A DNA stretch of 24,652 bases from a virus. Positions 2,365-24,652 of this stretch are shown here, one piece after another. The stretch lies in the IMG/VR virus record IMGVR_UViG_3300035179_000892, positions 1-24,652 of that record; one strand, written 5' to 3'. Under the pieces are notes generated by a model, which saw only the letters and a list, made by a program, of their open reading frames with translations, did not search any database and was not told where the DNA came from. Positions within the stretch are counted from its first letter, which is position 1. Every line of letters begins with the position of its first letter. The position numbers and the translations under genes are program-made.

Positions 2365-4152
2365 TTGGACATTTCCAAAGGACAGGCCGCCGAGCCAGTC
2401 ATCAAACTCGACATAAGCGAGGAGAGATTGCCACCGCCTGGCCAGCATCCTTCTGGCAAACGCCGCCTCCGTGCATTGCTCGTCAAACTGATGCCCGACC
2501 ACGAAATCTACTGCGAGCCGTTCTGCGGTCTAGCAGGAGTATTCTTCGCGAAGCCGCGAAGCAAGAAGGAAATTCTCAACGATGTGAACCCTGAATACAT
2601 TGGGTTTCTCAAGTTTCTTCGTGATGCAAGCGATGCCGATTGGGAAAAGATCAAGGCTATGGAATGGAGGCCCTCCGAGAGACGATGGGAAGAGCTTCGC
2701 GTTTCCAAACCTGACAGCAACATCGGCCGAGTCTATCGCATCATGTACCTCATGCGCTATGGCTACCGTGGGAATACTGGGCCTGGCAACTACGCTCCGA
2801 GCCGCGCATCGAGTGGTTTCCCGCAACTTCTCTTTGATCGACGCCAAGCCTACAAAGAAAGGCTTCGAGATGTCGTGATTCTCAACAAAGACTTCGAGGG
2901 CGTCATGCGAGAATACGATTCAGCGAACACGCTCTTCTTTCTTGATCCGCCATACCTGCAAAGCCCAGGCATGAGAGAAGGCGGGCAACACTTTCCAGGA
3001 AGCTCACCCGAAGAAGCCGAAAAGATCTTCATACGATTAACCGCCCGACTCCACTCTGCAAAGGGAAAGTGGATCCTAACGCATTCTTGGAATACCAAAG
3101 CGCGAGACGCCCTAGAGAGGCTTGGACACCTCCGCACCGTCACGGTGACTGAACCAACTGCATATGAAGGAGAGCTTGGAAGCCGACGCGAGATGATTGC
3201 CGCCAACTTCAAGCTGCCCGAGCGGCTACGCATCGTCTATGTGAGCAAGGGCACCCCAGTTGCCACTCTGATCCTTGCGCCCCTTGAGGATTCGGGAAGC
3301 CAAGATCTGAGAAAGATTCCAGTCAAGGAGATCAATCCCTCTACGCTCCGACGCGAGGACGCCAAACAGGTTCTCAATCTGCATCTGCGGATGCATCAGC
3401 TCTGGGGCTTGCTTGACCAACACGATTCGCTGGACGGCACGACTCGCGAGGATATCGCGAACGCTCACTACTTCGTAGCCCAGGAGCTTGCACGCAGAGA
3501 CTTTCGTCATTTCATGCACGACTTTCTTGACGACACCCTCCAGGAGGCCCCACTCGGCAAAACGATGCAGAAGATCTACGTCGAACGAGCAAAGCCCGCC
3601 TGGCGCATCTTCGAACTCGAAGATCTCCAGGAGATCGACGCCTTCAAGCCTGAGAATGCTGAGCTCGTGCTCGAGGTCAAATGGGATGGCGAGAGGATCC
3701 AGAGCCAGAAGCATAACGGCCGCGTAGAGATCTGGAGCGACTACCCACGTCGCGTAGATCACCGCTTACCACATCAAGTCAAAGAGCTCGAAGCCATGAA
3801 GCTCGATAATTTCAGGCTTGACTCCGAGGCCGTGATGCTCGAACCAGAAAGCAAAGAGACGCTGCACCGAACCATGGTTACGGCCCTGCTCAACGGGAAA
3901 TTCGACCCGACCGAGCGGGCGAAGATTCTCCACCTAATCGTCTTCGACTGCCTCGAGTTCGACGGCAAGGATCTCCGCGATCAGCCTCTAACAGAACGGA
4001 TCAAATTCCTGAAGGAATTCACTGGAACCGACCATATCCATCTCCTCACCGATTATCTCTCCGAGGATCCTGGCAAGGACGCTCTCGCCTATCTGATACC
4101 GCGCAGCCACAAACGGTTCGAGGCTACGATCGACAAGCTGATGGAAAAGTAG
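2365..4152 (+). CDS. D12-class adenine-N6 DNA methyltransferase fused to ATP-dependent DNA ligase (N-terminal part, ends at in-frame TAG)
   Basis: 595 residues from TTG 2365. Residues about 25-300 form a D12-class (Dam/DpnII type) N6-adenine methyltransferase: EPFCGLAGVFF at 51-61 is the SAM-binding motif and DPPY at 194-197 the catalytic motif. After a linker at about 300-420 comes the nucleotidyltransferase core of an ATP-dependent DNA ligase: KWDGER at 439-444 (motif I, K439 the AMP-accepting lysine), RLDSEAVM near 485 (motif III) and LIVFDCLEFDG near 525-535 (motif IIIa). Motifs IV and V are absent here but occur in the same frame straight after the TAG at 4150. The gene lies between a winged-helix-like gene and the prohead protease. 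Whether the TAG is read through, the ligase acts as two chains, or this is a decaying gene cannot be settled from sequence. Confidence 0.8.
   Translation: MDISKGQAAEPVIKLDISEERLPPPGQHPSGKRRLRALLVKLMPDHEIYCEPFCGLAGVFFAKPRSKKEILNDVNPEYIGFLKFLRDASDADWEKIKAMEWRPSERRWEELRVSKPDSNIGRVYRIMYLMRYGYRGNTGPGNYAPSRASSGFPQLLFDRRQAYKERLRDVVILNKDFEGVMREYDSANTLFFLDPPYLQSPGMREGGQHFPGSSPEEAEKIFIRLTARLHSAKGKWILTHSWNTKARDALERLGHLRTVTVTEPTAYEGELGSRREMIAANFKLPERLRIVYVSKGTPVATLILAPLEDSGSQDLRKIPVKEINPSTLRREDAKQVLNLHLRMHQLWGLLDQHDSLDGTTREDIANAHYFVAQELARRDFRHFMHDFLDDTLQEAPLGKTMQKIYVERAKPAWRIFELEDLQEIDAFKPENAELVLEVKWDGERIQSQKHNGRVEIWSDYPRRVDHRLPHQVKELEAMKLDNFRLDSEAVMLEPESKETLHRTMVTALLNGKFDPTERAKILHLIVFDCLEFDGKDLRDQPLTERIKFLKEFTGTDHIHLLTDYLSEDPGKDALAYLIPRSHKRFEATIDKLMEK
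4150..4152 (+). other. In-frame amber codon inside the ligase core
   Basis: The TAG follows ...DKLMEK, and the same frame continues ATSSLPVNLLEFKKLSEGV into ligase motif IV without any other stop until 6343. Start codons after it are poor: the first is TTG 4165, with no convincing ribosome binding site. TAG also ends about ten other + strand genes in the window, so it is a normal stop here and is not generally reassigned. Confidence 0.75.
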
Positions 4153-4164
4153 GCCACTTCTTCG

Positions 4165-6345
4165 TTGCCCGTCAACCTGCTCGAATTCAAGAAGCTCTCA
4201 GAGGGCGTCATGATAAAGCGAGCGGATAGCGTCTACGAGGCGCCTCAAAACAAAGCCTGGGCCAAGCTTAAACGCGAATACGAAATCGACGGCATCATCC
4301 TGCAACGGAACCAGACGAAGGTTCCGACGGTCTTCAACTACGATCTCGGCATCGGCCCGATCGCGGCCGAATATGCGAAAGCGATCGGCGAGAAAGCTTG
4401 CAAGCACGACGACCGATGGTATATGTTCATCGGCACAAGTGATGCCACGACATTCAAGCTGAACGCAGGAGAGATCCTTCGAGTCGCAGCGGAAGAGATC
4501 ATACTCCACGAAACTGAGGATCCCGAGTTTCCATACTACACGGGCTATGTGATGCGGGTCCGCGAGCCCGTCCCCGAGAAGAGCCGACCAGACCCTGTCC
4601 TGGTGATGCAGCGTCTAGCGGCTTTGGAACCGCGCAGGCTTCCGCAAGTCAGGAAACAACTTGAGACGCTTGAGTTCCCAGAGTTCGTCTGGATTCCAGG
4701 ATTCATCTCAATCGCGGGCAGCCTCATCTACCACGCAGAAGGTTACACAGACCGCGAGCCGAACGATATCGACATAATCGCTCGCTGTGAACGAGATCCA
4801 CAAGGCAGATTCATTCTGCGGCTAGATCCTGCGCTGCGATTGAAGCTCGATCGTATCCTGGAACGAAATTTCGGCGGGAAGGAAACCCAGTACTCCTCAA
4901 GTCCGTACGGGCCGAATTGGGACTACGCCCCAATCTACGATCTGGTCCTGCGCCCACACAAGCCGCTCAAGGTCGAGGAGCTCGAGGAAGACGAATTCAA
5001 GGAGCTCTTCTACAAGCAGGCCGAGGGGCGCCTCGAGAAGCAAGCGGATCCCTACATGGAATATCTGCCCGAGGACAAACGACACGACTACATGATGCAT
5101 GCCCACTACCGCGGAAAAGGCGCGCATCTCGATCTACGCTTCCAGGGACCCGAGAAGAAGTACTTGATCGGATGGACCATTTCAGCCCAGAATCCAGGAG
5201 TCATCAGAGAATCCGTTGAGACTCTGACAGACGCAAAGAAATGGTTCGCGAACTCCGACGCCTGGAAGATTGACTTCGAGAAGGGACGCGTTAAACTCCG
5301 CCGAGTCCGCGGAGGCCAAGTCAGGCCCGCTCAATTATACGCTTCCAGGAAGGCGAAGGAACCGCTTCCCTGGATGAAGTTCGAGGGCCGAGTCGAGCCT
5401 GGCCAGGTCGGCGCAACTCGATACGAGTACGGAGTATTCCTCATCGTCGAGGATGGCACAATTCAGACTGGAGCGCAGAAACCCTACTTCCACGAATACT
5501 TCCTGAACGGCAAGATCTTCAAGAGCCGAATCGCCTTCCGTCTCCTGGGGCGCCTCGAGAAGCAGGCTCGCGACATCCTGCCCGTCGGCGTTGAGGCTGA
5601 GGACTTCCGAGATCCATACTTCTGGAGCCTCATTCAACCCGTGGACCAAAGGCCCTACGTGCTGAGCCGTGAGGCCGTCGAGAAGAAATGGATGCCGCCA
5701 GACGGATTCTCAGCGCTCCCAGAAGAAGTTCGCTCTCAGCTCCCTCTCCAGTTCAGATATTGGAATGAGAAGGGCGAAAGCGCAAGGACGGCCCGAGATC
5801 TCCTTGTCGACGCCATTCAGGAAGGCCGCTTGAAGATCGACTTCGACGCCGTACTGCATGGACAGAGAATCGAGAAAGCCGCTTATCCCTACGTAATCCA
5901 GTGGCATTACTGGAAGAAGCAGAAAGTCGTCCGCGAGGGCCCGTCGACGCAACATTGGGATCTCCGCATCGACTTCGGCAAGCTACCGCTCTTCCATCTG
6001 GTCCTCGAGAGAAACCCGCTCGAGGAGAGTGAGGTCTCAGGCTACGAGAAACCATCCGAGGGCCGCGATGTTATGGAACGCGGCAGGAAGGGTCCTGAAT
6101 ACTTGGAACCGAGCGGGGATGCCAAGCCAAGCGAAGCAGGCTTCAATCCTTGGAATCCGACCAAAGAGACGCCCGCTTGGGTCGAGATGATTGATCACGG
6201 CGACGTCGAAGTCCTCGAACACACGCCGAATCTCATCCGCGTCCAATTCAAAAGCGGCCAGATGAAAGGAACTTGGCTGCTCGGACGCGAAGAACCAGGA
6301 TCGAAGTTCTGGCACATGCGTCGAACCCGCGAAGGACCAGGATAG
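4165..6345 (+). CDS. Ligase C-terminal part + nucleotidyltransferase-like segment + two LigD 3'-phosphoesterase-like domains
   Basis: 726 residues if started at TTG 4165, but in the same frame as the upstream methyltransferase-ligase; read through, the pair would span about 1,326 residues. Residues 13-19 (EGVMIKR) and 31-37 (AWAKLKR) are ligase motifs IV and V; an OB-fold-like stretch follows to about 135. Near 180-210, IAGSLIYHAEG followed by PNDIDIIA resembles the GS...DxD motif of minimal nucleotidyltransferases. At about 295-465 is a LigD-type 3'-phosphoesterase (PE) domain: HAHYRGKGAHLDLRF carries the H...HxDxR signature and WMKFEGRVEPG follows. A second PE-like domain at 575-726 has QWHYW...QHWDLRIDF. 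PE domains trim 3' phosphate or ribonucleotide ends before ligation. The next gene has its own GGAG at 6346-6349, so TAG 6343 is a true stop. Confidence 0.75.
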   Translation: MPVNLLEFKKLSEGVMIKRADSVYEAPQNKAWAKLKREYEIDGIILQRNQTKVPTVFNYDLGIGPIAAEYAKAIGEKACKHDDRWYMFIGTSDATTFKLNAGEILRVAAEEIILHETEDPEFPYYTGYVMRVREPVPEKSRPDPVLVMQRLAALEPRRLPQVRKQLETLEFPEFVWIPGFISIAGSLIYHAEGYTDREPNDIDIIARCERDPQGRFILRLDPALRLKLDRILERNFGGKETQYSSSPYGPNWDYAPIYDLVLRPHKPLKVEELEEDEFKELFYKQAEGRLEKQADPYMEYLPEDKRHDYMMHAHYRGKGAHLDLRFQGPEKKYLIGWTISAQNPGVIRESVETLTDAKKWFANSDAWKIDFEKGRVKLRRVRGGQVRPAQLYASRKAKEPLPWMKFEGRVEPGQVGATRYEYGVFLIVEDGTIQTGAQKPYFHEYFLNGKIFKSRIAFRLLGRLEKQARDILPVGVEAEDFRDPYFWSLIQPVDQRPYVLSREAVEKKWMPPDGFSALPEEVRSQLPLQFRYWNEKGESARTARDLLVDAIQEGRLKIDFDAVLHGQRIEKAAYPYVIQWHYWKKQKVVREGPSTQHWDLRIDFGKLPLFHLVLERNPLEESEVSGYEKPSEGRDVMERGRKGPEYLEPSGDAKPSEAGFNPWNPTKETPAWVEMIDHGDVEVLEHTPNLIRVQFKSGQMKGTWLLGREEPGSKFWHMRRTREGPG

Positions 6346-6354
6346 GAGATCGCG

Positions 6355-7827
6355 ATGCCTAGACCCCAATTGCTCATGCAGACATGCGCCGTGGATCCAC
6401 GGGAATGCGAGGTCTGCGGCGGCAACCCATTCAAATGCCGACTCTCACTCGAGATAATCGAGCGGAACATTCCGTATCGTCTAGTCAAGTTCACGCTGCC
6501 CGCTCAGGCCCAGATTATCCTCCAGGAGCCCGATCGGATCATCGCAGGCTACGCGAATATCGAGATCATAGACGCCCAGGGAGAGCTCATTCCTGCAGAA
6601 GCCTGGCATGAAGCATTCACCAAGTTCATGGCGAACCCGAAGTTTAGACTCGTCCACGTCTTCCATACCGATATCCCCATCGGCGAAGTCATCACAGGAT
6701 ACAAGGACTCGAAACATCGCATCTGGCGCTCCCATGTTGACGATCGCGGCCTCTTCGTCGTCGTTCGTCTACGCAAGGATCTCGTAGCCGCCGATCGCGT
6801 ATGGGACGCCATCCTGAAAGGCCAACTTCGCGCTTTCAGCATCAGCGGACTCGCCCTCGAGCGTCGTGTAGAATGCGCAGGCGGACGATGCTTCCGAGTC
6901 ATCCCACGACTAGAGCTCCACAGCATCACGGTCTGCGAGAAAGGAGCGAATCCAGGAGCACTCTTCGCGGTCGTGAAGAGCATCCCACTAGTAAGCCTTT
7001 TACGAATGCAAACGAAGCCCGCCCGACAGAAAATGTCTGAAGAGGAAATCCTGAACACACCCGAAGACCTCTCTATGCTAGAGAATGCAGGATCCGAAGG
7101 CAAGCCTTCGGAAACTCCTACTACACCGCAATCAAGCCAGCAAGCACCCGAGTCCAAAACTAGCGAGACTCAGAAGCAAGCGCAGCCGAGCGCTGATGCT
7201 GCGACGCCGCTCCTCCTCGAGATGAAAGCTCGCCTCGACCAGATCGCTGGCCAGATGGAGAAACTGGTCAGTGAGATGGAGAAGGCCCGCAAGCCCCAGG
7301 CGTATCCGTACCCTGGGAAGAAGAAGGCCAAGGAAGACGAGGAAGAAGAGGAAGAAGAGGAAGAAGAGAAGGCTGGAAAGAAGCCCGAGGAATACCCGTA
7401 CCCCGAGGAGAAGGCTCCCAAGGGGAAGGACAAGGAAGAGCCCGAAGAGAAGGCTGGAAAGAAGCCCGAGGAATACCCGTACCCCGAGGAGAAGGCTCCC
7501 AAGGGGAAGGACAAGGAAGAGCCCGAAGAGAAGGCTGGAAAGAAGCCAAAGTATCCTGCGCCACCGACGCGGAAAGGCGAGGTCCTAGCCATCAGTGGGG
7601 AAGACCTCGCGAAGATGATCGAGGAGAAGGCCTCCGAGATCGCTGAGAAGAAAGTCACCGAGATCCTCCAGAAGTCTCTTGGCAAGACTGAGAAGCGCGG
7701 CCAAGTCCCTGATATCGGCGGACCGTCGCCCGTCAGTGGGCCTCAAGCCCTTCTGAAGACGCCGCTCGCGAAACTCGGGACCATGCCGAGGCAAGAGTTC
7801 TGGAGCCAATTGCGAGGAGGACAGTGA
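6355..7827 (+). CDS. XkdF-like prohead serine protease fused to a repetitive scaffold-like tail
   Basis: 490 residues from ATG 6355 with a good ribosome binding site (AGGAG, 6345-6349). Residues about 55-220 match the prohead protease group: GYANIEIIDAQGELIP, RLVHVFHTDIPIGEVI with the catalytic-type His, LRAFSISG with the serine, and LHSITVCEKGANPGA at the end. Such proteases cut scaffold and capsid precursors during head maturation. Residues 230-480 are low complexity, Lys/Glu/Pro-rich and coiled-coil prone, including two 27-residue repeats (EKAGKKPEEYPYPEEKAPKG...). A charged helical domain after a protease, just before the capsid gene, is what a fused scaffold looks like. The cysteine-rich N-terminus (CEVCGGNPFKC) could bind zinc. 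Confidence 0.8.
   Translation: MPRPQLLMQTCAVDPRECEVCGGNPFKCRLSLEIIERNIPYRLVKFTLPAQAQIILQEPDRIIAGYANIEIIDAQGELIPAEAWHEAFTKFMANPKFRLVHVFHTDIPIGEVITGYKDSKHRIWRSHVDDRGLFVVVRLRKDLVAADRVWDAILKGQLRAFSISGLALERRVECAGGRCFRVIPRLELHSITVCEKGANPGALFAVVKSIPLVSLLRMQTKPARQKMSEEEILNTPEDLSMLENAGSEGKPSETPTTPQSSQQAPESKTSETQKQAQPSADAATPLLLEMKARLDQIAGQMEKLVSEMEKARKPQAYPYPGKKKAKEDEEEEEEEEEEKAGKKPEEYPYPEEKAPKGKDKEEPEEKAGKKPEEYPYPEEKAPKGKDKEEPEEKAGKKPKYPAPPTRKGEVLAISGEDLAKMIEEKASEIAEKKVTEILQKSLGKTEKRGQVPDIGGPSPVSGPQALLKTPLAKLGTMPRQEFWSQLRGGQ
7366..7547 (+). repeat. 81-bp tandem coding repeat in the scaffold-like region
   Basis: Two identical 81-base units (7366-7446 and 7447-7527) are followed by a 20-base third start (7528-7547). 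They are in frame and encode 27-residue units rich in Glu, Lys and Pro. Identity at DNA level, third codon positions included, points to recent duplication by slippage or unequal crossover. Before them is a GAAGAG-type run (about 7338-7368) coding for poly-Glu. Confidence 0.9.
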
Positions 7828-20551: not shown

Positions 20552-20580
20552 GTCGACTGTCTACACGAAGACTTCCCGCG

Positions 20581-20613
20581 CTGCTTTCTCTTCAGTTTCA
20601 TCTACCTAGCGGA
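20581..20613. repeat. 33-bp direct repeat, copy 1
   Basis: The 33 bases match 21044-21076 with three clustered mismatches (TTC against AAT at positions 11, 12 and 13 of the unit). On the - strand the unit spans a TAG followed directly by ATGAAACT. At copy 1 the - strand ATG (20601-20599) opens a 26-codon frame into the fibre gene, which looks like a remnant. The two copies bracket the 3-helix membrane gene. Confidence 0.75.
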
Positions 20614-20650: not shown

Positions 20651-20664
20651 TTCCCCTTTTCTTT
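20651..20664 (+). terminator. T-rich terminator for the tail operon
   Basis: CCCCTTTTCTTT follows the tail fibre gene by about 100 bases, with no stable hairpin seen. Archaeal RNA polymerase stops at such T-rich tracts, so this is the likely end of the + strand structural transcript. It abuts the end of the - strand gene that terminates at 20663. Confidence 0.4.
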
Positions 20665-20965
20665 ATCCGACAACTGCTGCGTAGATTTGCAGCGTGATCA
20701 GAGCCCCGACTATTGCCATGATGAAACCATAGATCATAAGGCCAATCGCCTGCCTTCGCGTCGGTCTATACTTCGGATGCAAGTTCACAAGAATCAGAAA
20801 ACCGACAGACGCAGCGATCACTAGATCAACGGGGATGATCTCAGAGTTCGTGATCCCGAGAACTGAGTACGCATACGCTACGCCGACTCTTCCGCCCAGA
20901 AAGAAACCAGCAATCGGAACAAGAAGCAATCGCACTTCAGGCCAGATAAGAGGCCAGATCCTCAT
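20663..20965 (-). CDS. Small 3-helix membrane protein, holin-like by topology
   Basis: 100 residues from ATG 20965. Three hydrophobic segments are visible: VRLLLVPIAGFFLGGRVGV, PVDLVIAASVGFLILVNL and AIGLMIYGFIMAIVGALITL, separated by a basic loop (HPKYRPTRRQ). It follows two tiny ORFs on the same strand: GCGATG lies right after the TGA of the 31-codon ORF. Size, topology and place just beyond the tail module fit a holin or exit protein, but no holin family motif was seen, so this is inference. Confidence 0.6.
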   Translation of the reverse strand: MRIWPLIWPEVRLLLVPIAGFFLGGRVGVAYAYSVLGITNSEIIPVDLVIAASVGFLILVNLHPKYRPTRRQAIGLMIYGFIMAIVGALITLQIYAAVVG

Positions 20966-20968
20966 CGC

Positions 20969-21064
20969 TCATTCTCCCAAGGCTTTCCGTAGAGCTTTCA
21001 TCTCTTCGAGCCGCTCGACGCCTGACTCCACAAACTTCGACGGCTGCTTTCTCAATAGTTTCAT
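20969..21064 (-). pseudogene. 31-codon remnant of the zinc-ribbon gene 3' end
   Basis: Reads MKLLRKQPSKFVESGVERLE then EMKALRKALGE. The last eight residues and the DNA (20973-20997, 25 identical bases) match the end of the integrase gene (23607-23631) and nearly match the 21440 gene. No zinc ribbon remains. ATG follows the TAG of the upstream membrane gene directly and the TGA precedes the next ATG by three bases, so it could still be translated as a linker ORF. Confidence 0.5.
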
Positions 21065-21076
21065 CTACCTAGCGGA
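21044..21076. repeat. 33-bp direct repeat, copy 2
   Basis: This is the partner of 20581-20613. Here the - strand TAG/ATG within the unit is used as the junction between the 48-residue membrane gene and the 31-codon ORF, so this copy looks like the functional or source one. Confidence 0.75.
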
Positions 21077-21211
21077 GCTTGGGCTTGCCTCTTTCTTCTT
21101 GCGTTGCCATATCTTGAAGACTATGATCCAGATTACGATGAGGGCTCCTATCATGAGCAGGACTCGTTGCAGGTCAGGGTCTTCCCAAGGGGGCGGAGGC
21201 GGAGTAGTCAA
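21065..21211 (-). CDS. 48-residue single-helix membrane protein
   Basis: From TTG 21211 to TAG 21065. It begins with a Pro-run (TTPPPPPWEDPDLQ), then one membrane helix (RVLLMIGALIVIWIIVF) and a basic end (KIWQRKKKEASPSSAR). The start is uncertain because no clear ribosome binding site precedes the TTG; no other start codon is available in the frame before an upstream TAG at 21257. Topology (outside N-terminus, basic inside C-terminus) resembles small accessory lysis or pore proteins. No family recognised. Confidence 0.5.
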   Translation of the reverse strand: MTTPPPPPWEDPDLQRVLLMIGALIVIWIIVFKIWQRKKKEASPSSAR

Positions 21212-21227
21212 GATCCAGAAACGCGAC

Positions 21228-21256
21228 CACGATTCCGTGAGCCGTCCCCTCTTTTT
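21228..21256 (+). terminator. Hairpin plus T-run, copy B
   Basis: CACG-ATTC-CGTG (21228-21239) is followed by GAGCCGTCCCC and a five-T run (21252-21256). The same order, with a longer stem, occurs at 23445-23481 beside the homologous cassette. On the + strand it would stop transcripts that escape from the tail operon and run antisense into the - strand genes. Confidence 0.45.
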
Positions 21257-21290
21257 CTACATTCCAGAAATGTCACTCGCTCCTTTTCCT

Positions 21291-21443
21291 TCACGGGTAG
21301 ATGCCCCCGACCGAGCCTAGAAGCACCATCGCCCAGAGTAGCCACCAGAGAAAATAGAGAAGAGCGGCTGCCATGAGGCCGTATAGAATCCATCGCCATT
21401 TCACGCGCTCAACTCTCCATAGGTGCTTGCTCTCATGTCTCAT
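21291..21443 (-). CDS. Small single-helix membrane protein (copy B of the 3' cassette gene)
   Basis: 50 residues from ATG 21443, which overlaps the TGA of the upstream zinc-ribbon gene by ATGA; an internal GTG at 21404 would give exactly 37 residues, the size of the homologue at 23493. The core WRWILYGLMAAALLYFLWWL is a membrane helix continuing to WAMVLLGSVGGIYP. The homologue has the same LYGLM and LGSVG-x-x-YP landmarks. Conservation of the overlap and of the landmarks says the pair works together: a soluble zinc-ribbon protein and a membrane peptide made from one message. Confidence 0.65.
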   Translation of the reverse strand: MRHESKHLWRVERVKWRWILYGLMAAALLYFLWWLLWAMVLLGSVGGIYP

Positions 21444-21685
21444 TCACCCAAGGCTTTCCGCAGAGCATCCTTGAAAGATTCACTGTTGATCAGGCGCTTG
21501 ATAAAGTCTGGCTCCGCAAGGATCCTGTCGAGTCCTGCAAGCTGCTCATTCGGGAGAATCGCGCCACACTTGACGCAGTAGATCGCGATCGGAGCATTCT
21601 CTTGGCTGCATCTCGGGCAGCTCTGGGCTTCGGTTGGAGATCCATTAGGTTCAGAAACGCTTAAGGAAAAGGCTCCATACCCCAT
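21440..21685 (-). CDS. Stand-alone zinc-ribbon protein, paralogue of the integrase C-terminus
   Basis: 81 residues from ATG 21685. Residues 23-40 are a zinc ribbon (CPRC...CVKC). From SQENAPIAIYCVKCGA to the end it matches integrase residues about 295-349 nearly throughout (QENAPIALYCVGCGA; PKFIQSLINSESFKEALRKA against PDFIKRLINSESFKDALRKA). The first 20 residues are unrelated to the recombinase. The recombinase catalytic domain is absent, so this cannot recombine DNA. It could act as a regulator or decoy for a partner bound by the shared tail. The start lies only 18 bases from the divergent + gene at 21704. Confidence 0.75.
   Translation of the reverse strand: MGYGAFSLSVSEPNGSPTEAQSCPRCSQENAPIAIYCVKCGAILPNEQLAGLDRILAEPDFIKRLINSESFKDALRKALGE
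21660..21665. promoter_or_regulatory. CTTAAG TATA-like element for the gene at 21704
   Basis: CTTAAG is preceded on the + strand by AGAAACG, a possible BRE, 38 bases before TTG 21704. A start point near 21687-21692 would leave a short leader. Because it lies inside the - strand zinc-ribbon ORF, it is only a candidate. Confidence 0.25.
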
Positions 21686-21703
21686 CTCAACGACGAAACG
21701 CAG

Positions 21704-22711
21704 TTGAAAGTGGCAGCAGTCGCAGTCATTCTATGGGTTCTCGCTGTCCAGTCACTCGCAGCTCTCAATCTAGTCGCCGCAGAGCAGAGCAAGCCAAACC
21801 TGAATGCCTGCCTCAAAATGTTCGGTAGTGGGTATGGTTTTGTGAACGATACACCTTGGCCCTATCCCGAATCCTGGCATTGGGAATTTCGCATGAGGGT
21901 AGACTACAACGCAAGCGACGGCAGCCATCCTCAAGTCAGCATTCTATGGACTGATGATGTCGGCGGAACATTCGAGCCTTCACGAACAAGCCAAGAGGTT
22001 CATTGGAGATCTCCGCCAGAGATCATCTGCCTCACTATCAACGTGACCGTTTCCGCGCCAGGCTACGAATCAGGATCAGATCGGCTGGCTGCTGCGCACC
22101 TTGACATACCCATTCCTTCTGGCGGATACGTTCAGCCTACTCCGCAAAACTGCCCTAGTGCGTTCGGTGTTGCGTATCCCAGTGTCAACTCAGTTTCATC
22201 CACGACCACCACGATTCCTCGGCTCGAATCATTCTGTACAGTCGCGTTGTACGGTTATCTCACTGTTCGCGTCACAGACGAGAATGGCAAGCCAATTCAG
22301 AACGCGCTTGTCATGATAAACGGAACGTTGACCTGCAACCATCAAACGGGAACAGTAGACCGCTCAGGACTGACAGACTCTGACGGATATGTTTGGTTCG
22401 ACGCCTATCCAACCAAGTACAATATCTCAGTCATCCTGCCTGAGACTCTTCAGAGTCGAACAATTCTTGTCACGCAGACCACTTTTCCCGTAGGTACGTT
22501 CCAGACAACCCTTCACGTAGCTTGTACGCCCTCAGCGAATCAGTGCAGCATAGCTGCGCCAAAATCTGAAACGCAGGCAACTTCTGTCACAAGCGCTCCT
22601 ATTCCTTTTCTGGACTTCCCAGGGATTCTCGTCGCTATTCTTCTTGGGCTCTTTGTCGTGGTGAAAAAGAGGGAAAGGAACTTTCATTCACAGTATACGA
22701 GAAGACTCTGA
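21704..22711 (+). CDS. Secreted surface protein with C-terminal membrane anchor
   Basis: 335 residues from TTG 21704. A signal peptide (VAAVAVILWVLAVQSLAAL) opens it and a single membrane helix closes it (FPGILVAILLGLFVVV followed by KKRERN), with a Ser/Thr/Pro stretch before the helix. Residues about 185-260 (GYLTVRVTDENGKPIQNALV, MINGT, GLTDSDGYVWFDAYPTKYNI) match carboxypeptidase-regulatory/Ig-like beta domains common on archaeal cell surfaces. Several N-x-S/T sequons are present. It stands alone on the + strand among - strand genes, so it has its own promoter. It may coat infected cells or alter superinfection, or be a host-derived cargo gene. Confidence 0.6.
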   Translation: MKVAAVAVILWVLAVQSLAALNLVAAEQSKPNLNACLKMFGSGYGFVNDTPWPYPESWHWEFRMRVDYNASDGSHPQVSILWTDDVGGTFEPSRTSQEVHWRSPPEIICLTINVTVSAPGYESGSDRLAAAHLDIPIPSGGYVQPTPQNCPSAFGVAYPSVNSVSSTTTTIPRLESFCTVALYGYLTVRVTDENGKPIQNALVMINGTLTCNHQTGTVDRSGLTDSDGYVWFDAYPTKYNISVILPETLQSRTILVTQTTFPVGTFQTTLHVACTPSANQCSIAAPKSETQATSVTSAPIPFLDFPGILVAILLGLFVVVKKRERNFHSQYTRRL

Positions 22712-22776
22712 AGAGGCTTGGGCGGGAGAAAGTGCTCATTTGAAGTCGCAAGCAGTAGGGGCGCCTAAGATCTCGC

Positions 22777-22792
22777 CTGATCATATGATCAG
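22777..22792. repeat. Perfect 16-bp palindrome with two GATC sites
   Basis: CTGATCATATGATCAG equals its own reverse complement. A third GATC lies at 22769-22772. It falls in the 134-base space between two convergent genes (22711 end and 22846 end), where otherwise nothing is seen. It could be a dimeric protein site or an end-of-transcript hairpin. Confidence 0.8.
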
Positions 22793-22845
22793 CCTAACAG
22801 CAGCAGTGCAGAGACAGGCAAGACGATTAAGGCATGGCCCTTACC

Positions 22846-23358
22846 TCAAGAGTCTGTGCTAGCAGCATCGACTCCTCCTGAACCTGTAGCCTCTGCGAAC
22901 TTCACTGGCACTTTGGTTGTGAAACCGATCTCCTTGGCTGGTCTATTGACAAACTCCACTATCGCCGCGACCACGGACGAGTTAACCTCCGACACTTTAC
23001 CCCGTTCAACCCATATCCAGTAGTATCCGTCGGCGCCCACACCATGTGAGACTACCAACGTACCCCAAAACGGGAACGAAACATCGGGTCCCGAGACCTG
23101 AGCACCGAGCTTTGTTAGCATCCCAAGCCAGGCCAATTCCTCGGCTGCATCTTTGAAGGCAGGGAGCTGGCCGTACTTCAGAAAGTACGGTTGTGGCATC
23201 TCGGTCTCAGGAATCAAGAACCCAAACGTTGGAGTCATGCTGGCTCCTGTTGGAGTCTCGGACGGTTGGGTAGGATTGCGATACTGCACAGTCAGCGATG
23301 CGATGGAGACAGCGACAAACCCCACCAGCAAGAGGGTGATCGCGACCCTCCGTTCCAT
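22846..23358 (-). CDS. N-terminally anchored or secreted hypothetical protein
   Basis: 170 residues from ATG 23358, with GGAG at 23373-23370 as ribosome binding site. The start RRVAITLLLVGFVAVSIASL is a membrane anchor or signal peptide. A Thr/Pro/Ser linker follows (NPTQPSETPTGASMTPT), then a soluble domain with LPAFKDAAEELAWLGMLTKL, WGTLVVSHGVGADGYYWIWV and VVAAIVEFVN. No recognised family. It faces outside the membrane and is transcribed on the integrase strand. It is a second surface-type accessory gene in the right-hand region. Confidence 0.55.
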   Translation of the reverse strand: MERRVAITLLLVGFVAVSIASLTVQYRNPTQPSETPTGASMTPTFGFLIPETEMPQPYFLKYGQLPAFKDAAEELAWLGMLTKLGAQVSGPDVSFPFWGTLVVSHGVGADGYYWIWVERGKVSEVNSSVVAAIVEFVNRPAKEIGFTTKVPVKFAEATGSGGVDAASTDS

Positions 23359-23391
23359 AGGCCAGTCAACTCCAAGGCTATGAGATTCGAA

Positions 23392-23427
23392 CTATCGCAT
23401 AGACGCTCTCACGTAGAAGTCTATCGC
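23392..23427. repeat. Direct plus inverted repeat cluster upstream of the 23358 gene
   Basis: CTATCGC occurs at 23392-23398 and 23421-23427 (29 bases apart), and ATAGAC (23399-23404) pairs with GTCTAT (23419-23424) across 14 bases. The cluster sits in the 134-base gap between the 23358 start and the cassette at 23493. It may be an operator or recombinase-arm site. Confidence 0.5.
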
Positions 23428-23444
23428 CCATTTGGTAAATCCAA

Positions 23445-23481
23445 GGCCCGCGGAATCCGTGGGCCGCCTCCCCTATTTTTT
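23445..23481 (+). terminator. Strong hairpin plus T-run, copy A
   Basis: GGCCCGCGG and CCGTGGGCC (23445-23453 and 23457-23465) form a 9-bp stem with one G-U pair and a 3-base loop. CCTCCCCTATTTTTT follows. It looks like an intrinsic terminator on the + strand, and would stop transcripts entering the integrase gene antisense. The related copy B is at 21228. Confidence 0.5.
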
Positions 23482-23492
23482 CACCGTCTCAT

Positions 23493-23606
23493 TCATGGAT
23501 AGAGGCTGCCGACCGATCCTAGAACTACCATCCCCACGAAGATAAAGGCCAGCACAGCCAGCACCATCAGGCCGTATAGAACCCATCCCCATTTCAGTTT
23601 TCTCAC
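23493..23606 (-). CDS. Small single-helix membrane protein (copy A), coupled to the integrase
   Basis: 37 residues from GTG 23606, overlapping the integrase TGA as GTGA. Sequence landmarks are KLKWGWVLYGLM, a helix continuing through VLAVLAFIFVGMVV and the ending LGSVGSLYP. It matches the homologue at 21291 in length from its internal GTG and in the landmarks LYGLM and LGSVG. It is too short for standard gene calls. Coupling implies it is made together with the integrase, which is an unusual partner for a membrane peptide. Confidence 0.65.
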   Translation of the reverse strand: MRKLKWGWVLYGLMVLAVLAFIFVGMVVLGSVGSLYP

Positions 23607-24652
23607 TCTCCCAAGGCTTTCCGTAGAGCTTCCTTGAAAGATTCACTATTGATCAGGCTCTGAATAAACTTTGGATCCGAGAGGACTTTCGCCAAGTCGG
23701 CCATCTGCTCGCTCGCCAGCAGTGCGCCGCATCCGACGCAGTAGAGTGCGATCGGAGCGTTCTCTTGGCCGCAGACGCATTTGACGACCTGACTGATCGG
23801 CCGTAGAATCTCGTCCTTTCTCTTCAAGCCGTGCAGTACCAAATCTTTCTCTTCGACGTCCTGCATGGTTAGGTGCGTATAGACGCCCACCATGTCGGGC
23901 CGTTTCCATCCGAAGAGTTTCATCATCTCGCGATCTGTGAAGTATCTGCAGTCTTCGGTCGCCCTGGTGTGCCTGAACATCTTCGGATAGATCTTCTTGC
24001 TGAGAATCTGTTCGCCAAGATCCCTGACATGGCGATAGAGCGTCTGCCCCTTGAACGGGCTACCCCTCGAGGTTAGGAATAGGCGGACGTCGGGATCCTT
24101 CCTCTCTGGATGATTGTTGATCTGTTCGCGTAGGTCTGGAACGCAGCCGTAGATTCGGCGTCGGCGAGTTCCAGTCTTGCCTGTCAGCCAGATGATCGCA
24201 CCGTACTGGTCGAATTGGACGTCTCTTATTCGGAGGAGGGCGATCTCGCTTCGCCGCCCGCCCAATTCGTCCAACAGTTCAACGATGAGTCTATCCTGCA
24301 GCGTCGGGGCTTCGTTGATGAGCCGCTCGATTTCCTGGCGCTCGAGGACCTGGCCCTGTATCCCTGTGCCCAGGTCTGGTTGCTTCGGGAACGGGACCTC
24401 CTCCGCTAGGTCCTTTCGGCCAACGAACTTCAGGGACATCTTGACGACGACGACGTGCAGGGTATAGTAGGCGAGACTGGATCTCTCTCGAACGCGATCC
24501 AGCATAGCCATGAGCTCGGGCTTGGTGCAGGCTTCGAGATTCAGATGCTCATGATTGACGATCCTTTTGAGAATGCAGGTGTAGCGGTCGATAGTGGTCG
24601 AGGTGACGCCTCGCCGTCCCGCATCCTGGAGGAAACCCTGAACCCAGCTCAT
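23603..24652 (-). CDS. Tyrosine recombinase (integrase) with C-terminal zinc ribbon
   Basis: 349 residues when started at the ATG 24652 on the window edge; the true start could be upstream. Residues 1-95 are a SAM-like core-binding domain (TIDRYTCILKRIVNHEHLNL, AYYTLHVVVVKMSLKFV). The catalytic domain shows GGRRSEI (R133), a lysine in TGKTGTRRRR (K159), KMFRHT (R227), FGWKRPD (W249) and the nucleophile Y258 in GVYTHL. The usual H of HxxR appears as K224. Residues 292-308 form a zinc ribbon (CVC...CVGC), and the C-terminus ends INSESFKEALRKALGE. It integrates or excises the viral genome at a host attachment site. No attachment site was identified. Confidence 0.85.
   Translation of the reverse strand: MSWVQGFLQDAGRRGVTSTTIDRYTCILKRIVNHEHLNLEACTKPELMAMLDRVRERSSLAYYTLHVVVVKMSLKFVGRKDLAEEVPFPKQPDLGTGIQGQVLERQEIERLINEAPTLQDRLIVELLDELGGRRSEIALLRIRDVQFDQYGAIIWLTGKTGTRRRRIYGCVPDLREQINNHPERKDPDVRLFLTSRGSPFKGQTLYRHVRDLGEQILSKKIYPKMFRHTRATEDCRYFTDREMMKLFGWKRPDMVGVYTHLTMQDVEEKDLVLHGLKRKDEILRPISQVVKCVCGQENAPIALYCVGCGALLASEQMADLAKVLSDPKFIQSLINSESFKEALRKALGE

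Follow-up and report, generated by a model that had tools for sequence, protein, structure and literature searches.

The window analysed here, the whole 24,652-base IMG/VR virus record IMGVR_UViG_3300035179_000892 (positions 1 to 24,652), carries at its right end a tyrosine integrase gene (349 aa; 23603-24652, minus strand) that is followed by a gene for a small membrane peptide. A second copy of the end of this locus, at 21231-21619, comprises the last 54-59 integrase residues, a 4-base overlap, a one-span membrane protein and ~30 nt of downstream DNA, and an eroded third unit at 20663-21064 retains just the tail's final ~30 nt, with the ribbon gone and an unrelated membrane gene behind it. 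The major capsid protein shares 31-33% identity with its counterparts in Haloarcula head-tailed viruses and 29% with that of a Methanofastidiosa virus, and the window therefore represents an archaeal head-tailed virus or provirus. No tRNA genes were detected in the 24,652-base window. The closest integrase in the sampled genomes (35% identity, E 2e-47) lies in a genome in the phylum of a Bathyarchaeota genome, which is a hint of host range, not proof. The capsid-protein search found four relatives, and since none of the four contains an integrase, the duplicated region cannot be compared across them; no closely related contig bearing an integrase was found.

Elsewhere in the window, between the portal-side and capsid genes (2365-6345), an ORF resembling by eye a Dam-type adenine methylase runs on into a KWDGERIQ motif resembling that of ATP-dependent DNA ligase, and the next ORF begins ligase-like. 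The ORF preceding the capsid gene contains, in its E/K/P-rich part, a perfect 81-nt tandem repeat of 2.3 copies (7363-7547), of which a related locus (L003) apparently has fewer copies.

The integrase and its zinc-ribbon tail

The integrase matches PF00589 significantly over its catalytic domain (E 3e-17; 63.3 bits against a cut-off of 27.1) as well as phrog_1 (E 5e-24), and its predicted structure (mean pLDDT 88) has a fold that matches archaeal XerA, Cre and lambda Int. The ORF reaches the last base of the contig, and its N-terminus is possibly cut. Catalytic residues R133, K159, R227, W249 and Y258 fall in conserved columns, giving an R-K-HxxR-H/W-Y set with one deviating position: the HxxR motif reads KxxR (K224 in PKMFRHTRAT; residues 222-228, window 23969-23989), where nearly all aligned relatives have H.

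The C-terminal tail (23606-23788, minus strand) consists of a zinc ribbon (CxC..CxxC) and three short helices. In the predicted structure it is a separate module behind a low-confidence linker: after the confident core, block pLDDT falls to 54-60 in the linker (about residues 274-288) and is about 81-83 in the ribbon and 72-90 in the three helices. The four ribbon cysteines that follow the catalytic tyrosine (C292, C294, C305 and C308) are invariant columns in an alignment of 50 sequences. The first knuckle in the integrase is CxC (KCVCGQEN) and that of the stand-alone copy is CxxC, the canonical form; because the archaeal integrases of loci L026 and L065 also have CxC, we discount the idea that this spacing marks the integrase ribbon as degenerate.

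Among 57 archaeal integrases that were recovered by core similarity and have a complete C-terminus, 50 carry a C-terminal ribbon, as do 32 of 37 in a further set; these fractions are possibly inflated in that the seed alignment held ribbon-bearing integrases only, though the patterns used for scanning were drawn from the catalytic domain. The same order of catalytic domain, ribbon and variable tail is seen in the integrases of the pleolipoviruses ThalV2 and GacPV1, of the Caudoviricetes vir524 and of many genome loci, the variable part being helical in the window model. A zinc ribbon with a variable C-terminal tail is thus ordinary on related archaeal integrases, and the stand-alone copy is the unusual part. 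The full text of the family's main review (PMC8371274) contains neither 'zinc' nor 'ribbon', and no tail function was found.

A small array of tail ends and membrane genes

The stand-alone tail gene (21440-21685, minus strand) has an ATG start and encodes an 81-aa zinc-ribbon and helical tail protein with all four cysteines (CPRC..CVKC). It is related to the integrase gene through the direct repeat D1 (173 nt, 77% identity, 21438-21610 against 23601-23773), and the tail proteins are about 70% identical (67-70%), residues 23-81 of the stand-alone protein matching the integrase tail at 69% (E 4e-24). Against PF13240 (Zn_Ribbon_1) the stand-alone protein scores 23.6 bits (E 4e-5), below the curated cut-off of 25 but with four cysteines present, and on the archaeal integrase-ribbon profile its ribbon outscores that of the integrase itself (28.5 against 20.2 bits). 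No remnant of the integrase N-terminus was seen upstream of it. Only 18 nt away lies the listed start of a divergent gene (21704-22711, plus strand) for a 335-aa protein that looks exported and contains a carboxypeptidase-regulatory-like domain (PF13620, E 4e-8).

Each tail gene runs into a single-span membrane gene on the same strand through a 4-base overlap: GTGA between the integrase stop and a GTG-initiated 37-aa peptide (23493-23606, minus strand), and ATGA between the stand-alone tail and an ATG-initiated 50-aa peptide (21291-21443, minus strand). The cores of the two membrane ORFs, which include a 33-nt repeat of 91% identity (D4), align with a score of 110, where shuffled sequences average 27 and reach 61 at most, and by sequence the two peptides are clearly homologous. 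A further repeat lies downstream of both (23453-23489 and 21231-21258, minus strand), recognised by pairwise DNA alignment; in the first copy it has an A-run and hairpin on the coding strand and a T-run on the plus strand. The recurrence in the same order described in an earlier note on this DNA is thus confirmed for tail, overlap, membrane protein and downstream stretch. Its hairpin and T-run do not stand as a terminator of the gene pair, the T-run being on the plus strand, opposite to the genes, and the terminator scan having made no call. The same note had counted the conserved overlap among the signs of functional pairing; 4-base overlaps occur at two other junctions of the window and are ordinary in this genome.

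The third unit, which the earlier note does not mention, begins with a 31-aa ORF (MKLLRKQPSKFVESGVERLEEMKALRKALGE; 20969-21064, minus strand) that carries repeat D2 and ends in KALRKALGE. Its copy of the D2 tail-end repeat lies at 20961-20995, with the other copies at 21432-21466 and 23595-23629 (plus-strand coordinates), and a 30-nt piece (20968-20997) is 97% identical to the end of the integrase tail (E about 1e-8), a match at the DNA level that rules out chance; at the protein level the resemblance is convincing for the last 8 residues only. One codon past the stop of this ORF begins a 100-aa membrane ORF (20663-20965, minus strand) unrelated to the 50-aa and 37-aa peptides. The unit is bracketed by the copies of repeat D3 (43 nt at 21034-21076, plus strand, 84% identical to 20571-20613), and between units 2 and 3 lies a 48-aa single-span membrane ORF with a non-ATG start (21065-21211, minus strand). 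Between their shared ends, units 2 and 3 show similarity not beyond the shuffled level. With shared tail ends and dissimilar stretches between them, the region amounts to a small array of tail ends placed ahead of different membrane genes, and the pairing of the third tail end with an unrelated membrane gene means that the association of tail and membrane peptide is not obligatory. The repeats show that a segment holding the integrase 3' end and the small membrane gene behind it was copied to a site about 2.2 kb off, within the provirus's right arm, and that further rearrangement produced a third unit keeping only the last 8-10 tail codons.

Constraint on the copies and searches for relatives

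The two copies differ at 39 of 162 nucleotide positions in the tail and at 36 of 111 in the membrane core. In the tail this amounts to 16 amino-acid differences, where neutral simulation predicts 24.6 (none of 2000 runs gave so few), and in the membrane pair to 16, where it predicts 21.1 (22 of 2000 runs gave so few), with replacements more conservative than in all 2000 simulations. Neither protein contains a stop, although about 70% of neutral simulations acquired one. Pairwise NG86 dN/dS, to which constraint on the integrase branch contributes, is about 0.24 for the tail and about 0.45 for the membrane ORFs. Judged from these sequence comparisons, the stand-alone tail and the membrane ORF are under purifying selection between copies and both look like working genes; since the duplication is known from one contig only, it is not possible to attribute this selection to the stand-alone branch by itself. 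At the DNA level the final third of the tail is better conserved (differences at 6 of 54 positions) than what precedes it (33 of 108), and this could reflect gene conversion or constraint on translation start instead of protein function.

That pattern bears on the main rival to the reading we prefer. In that rival, selection would act on the membrane genes as cargo, the integrase 3' end would serve them as a leader providing a ribosome-binding site and translational coupling, and the zinc-ribbon protein would be a passenger. What the three units have in common is confined to the tail's final ~30 nt, immediately ahead of a membrane gene start, the third unit precedes a different membrane gene with no ribbon at all, and the 3' third of the tail is its most conserved DNA, as such a leader would have it. 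Yet the stand-alone ribbon has kept four cysteines, its own start codon and protein-level constraint, RNA structure around the tail/membrane junctions is no better than shuffled, and the excess of synonymous conservation at the tail 3' end is not significant (p 0.49), so that we consider this explanation a serious one but unlikely.

Searches of IMG/VR and of about 690 archaeal genomes returned no stand-alone copy of the tail, and inspection of roughly 100 neighbourhoods of archaeal integrases (some 70 loci from genomes, 5 from viruses and another 37) returned none either. These neighbourhoods, those of the ThalV2/GacPV1/vir524 type among them, also lack a homologous membrane gene behind the integrase, unlike the window. 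Searches of viral contigs with the integrase, the tail, the tail alignment or the 100-aa membrane protein returned no close relatives; a DNA pattern for the tail end gave 0 matches there, and one for the membrane core gave 8, all in another frame of an unrelated protein. The tail profile found one generic ribbon only in 292 plus 398 archaeal genomes, a search run without a positive control, and a broader tail profile, applied to 40 genomes, mostly picked up host zinc-ribbon proteins about 105-113 aa long, the rest of whose sequence is unlike the window protein. Of the two findings that the earlier note named as counting against its idea, one was thus obtained, as the pair did not recur outside this contig in the viral contigs, archaeal genomes and integrase neighbourhoods covered, and the other was not, as the membrane ORFs do show purifying selection. 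The duplication of tail and membrane gene has been seen in one virus only and is a lead, not a discovery.

The nearest analogue is a separate small gene near the integrase of a methanogen locus (L069, 2151-2393, minus strand), whose product has the same kind of ribbon and helix tail; it differs in having an N-terminal segment that resembles ribbon-helix-helix proteins by eye alone, with no Pfam match, and in a tail that shares just ~33% identity with the integrase tail of the same locus. Free-standing zinc-ribbon proteins of arCOG08677 are among the commonest in archaeal mobile elements (PMC6563490) and resemble the window protein as small zinc-ribbon proteins within integrated archaeal elements, but an origin from an adjoining integrase tail is not described in the parts of that source drawn on here (PMC6563490).

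One way for a detached tail to arise is shown by the genome that holds the closest integrase, where an integrase pseudogene (L156, 632-967, minus strand) has lost its core, joining residues ~53-131 to the zinc-ribbon tail, and is 91% identical in DNA over 100 nt of the tail to an intact copy elsewhere in the genome. This example lends some weight to the view that the stand-alone tail is the decaying remnant of an additional integrase copy that had a membrane gene of its own and lost its catalytic core. The pseudogene, however, is full of stops, while the copy in the window has an uninterrupted frame, begins with ATG and is under constraint, and the missing N-terminal remnant upstream also speaks against decay; we regard this origin as improbable.

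Possible roles of the detached tail

The earlier proposal of a functional pair of zinc ribbon and membrane peptide survives in part: protein-level constraint on both members favours it, and the lack of recurrence and the swap of the membrane gene in the third unit do not. In another reading, the tail protein and the membrane peptide would make up one complex that anchors an integrase-related activity to the membrane. The 4-base overlap and the retention of both partners in both pairs are consistent with such a complex, but other archaeal integrases lack a coupled homologous membrane gene, the membrane partner is exchanged in the third unit and 4-base overlaps are common in the window, observations that do not support the suggested membrane link for integration; we rate the complex as very improbable. 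Also very improbable is a two-gene switch, in which the tail was split off as a dedicated trans-acting regulator together with an envelope-reporting or tethering peptide and ties integration or excision to the state of the membrane.

We favour, tentatively and at a little under an even chance, a local segmental duplication that has been kept as a trans-acting, tail-only protein, with a co-translated membrane peptide in a separate role. The stand-alone gene would yield a small zinc-ribbon and helix protein in which, as the substitution statistics indicate, the residues that determine the fold are kept. Since this protein comprises the tail but no catalytic core, its most likely mode of action is in trans, on whatever the integrase tail touches, and it would thereby tune recombination; candidate contacts are further protomers of the integrase, or else attachment-site DNA and the host factors there. 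The tail-only protein may in this way modulate the integrase, and a decoy or modulating role is our best functional guess. The membrane peptide is probably independent of the tail protein although co-translated with it, and the change of membrane gene behind the same tail end suggests that these peptides are cargo, coupled in translation but doing a job of their own.

By analogy, modulation of an archaeal integrase by small proteins has a precedent in IntSNJ2, whose integration activity in vivo is raised by Orf2 and Orf3 from the same operon (PMC8371274). Small same-strand genes follow the integrase in both systems, and those of IntSNJ2 modulate it (PMC8371274), but Orf2 is a coiled-coil protein and Orf3 is MarR-like, neither being described as a copy of the integrase tail (PMC8371274). 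The window genes are not accessory genes of the IntSNJ2 type, consisting of a 37-aa membrane peptide behind the integrase and a stand-alone zinc ribbon. A naturally detached and still constrained tail is a ready-made reagent for asking what the tail does, and it would be a small example of the regulation of a recombinase by a truncated paralogue.
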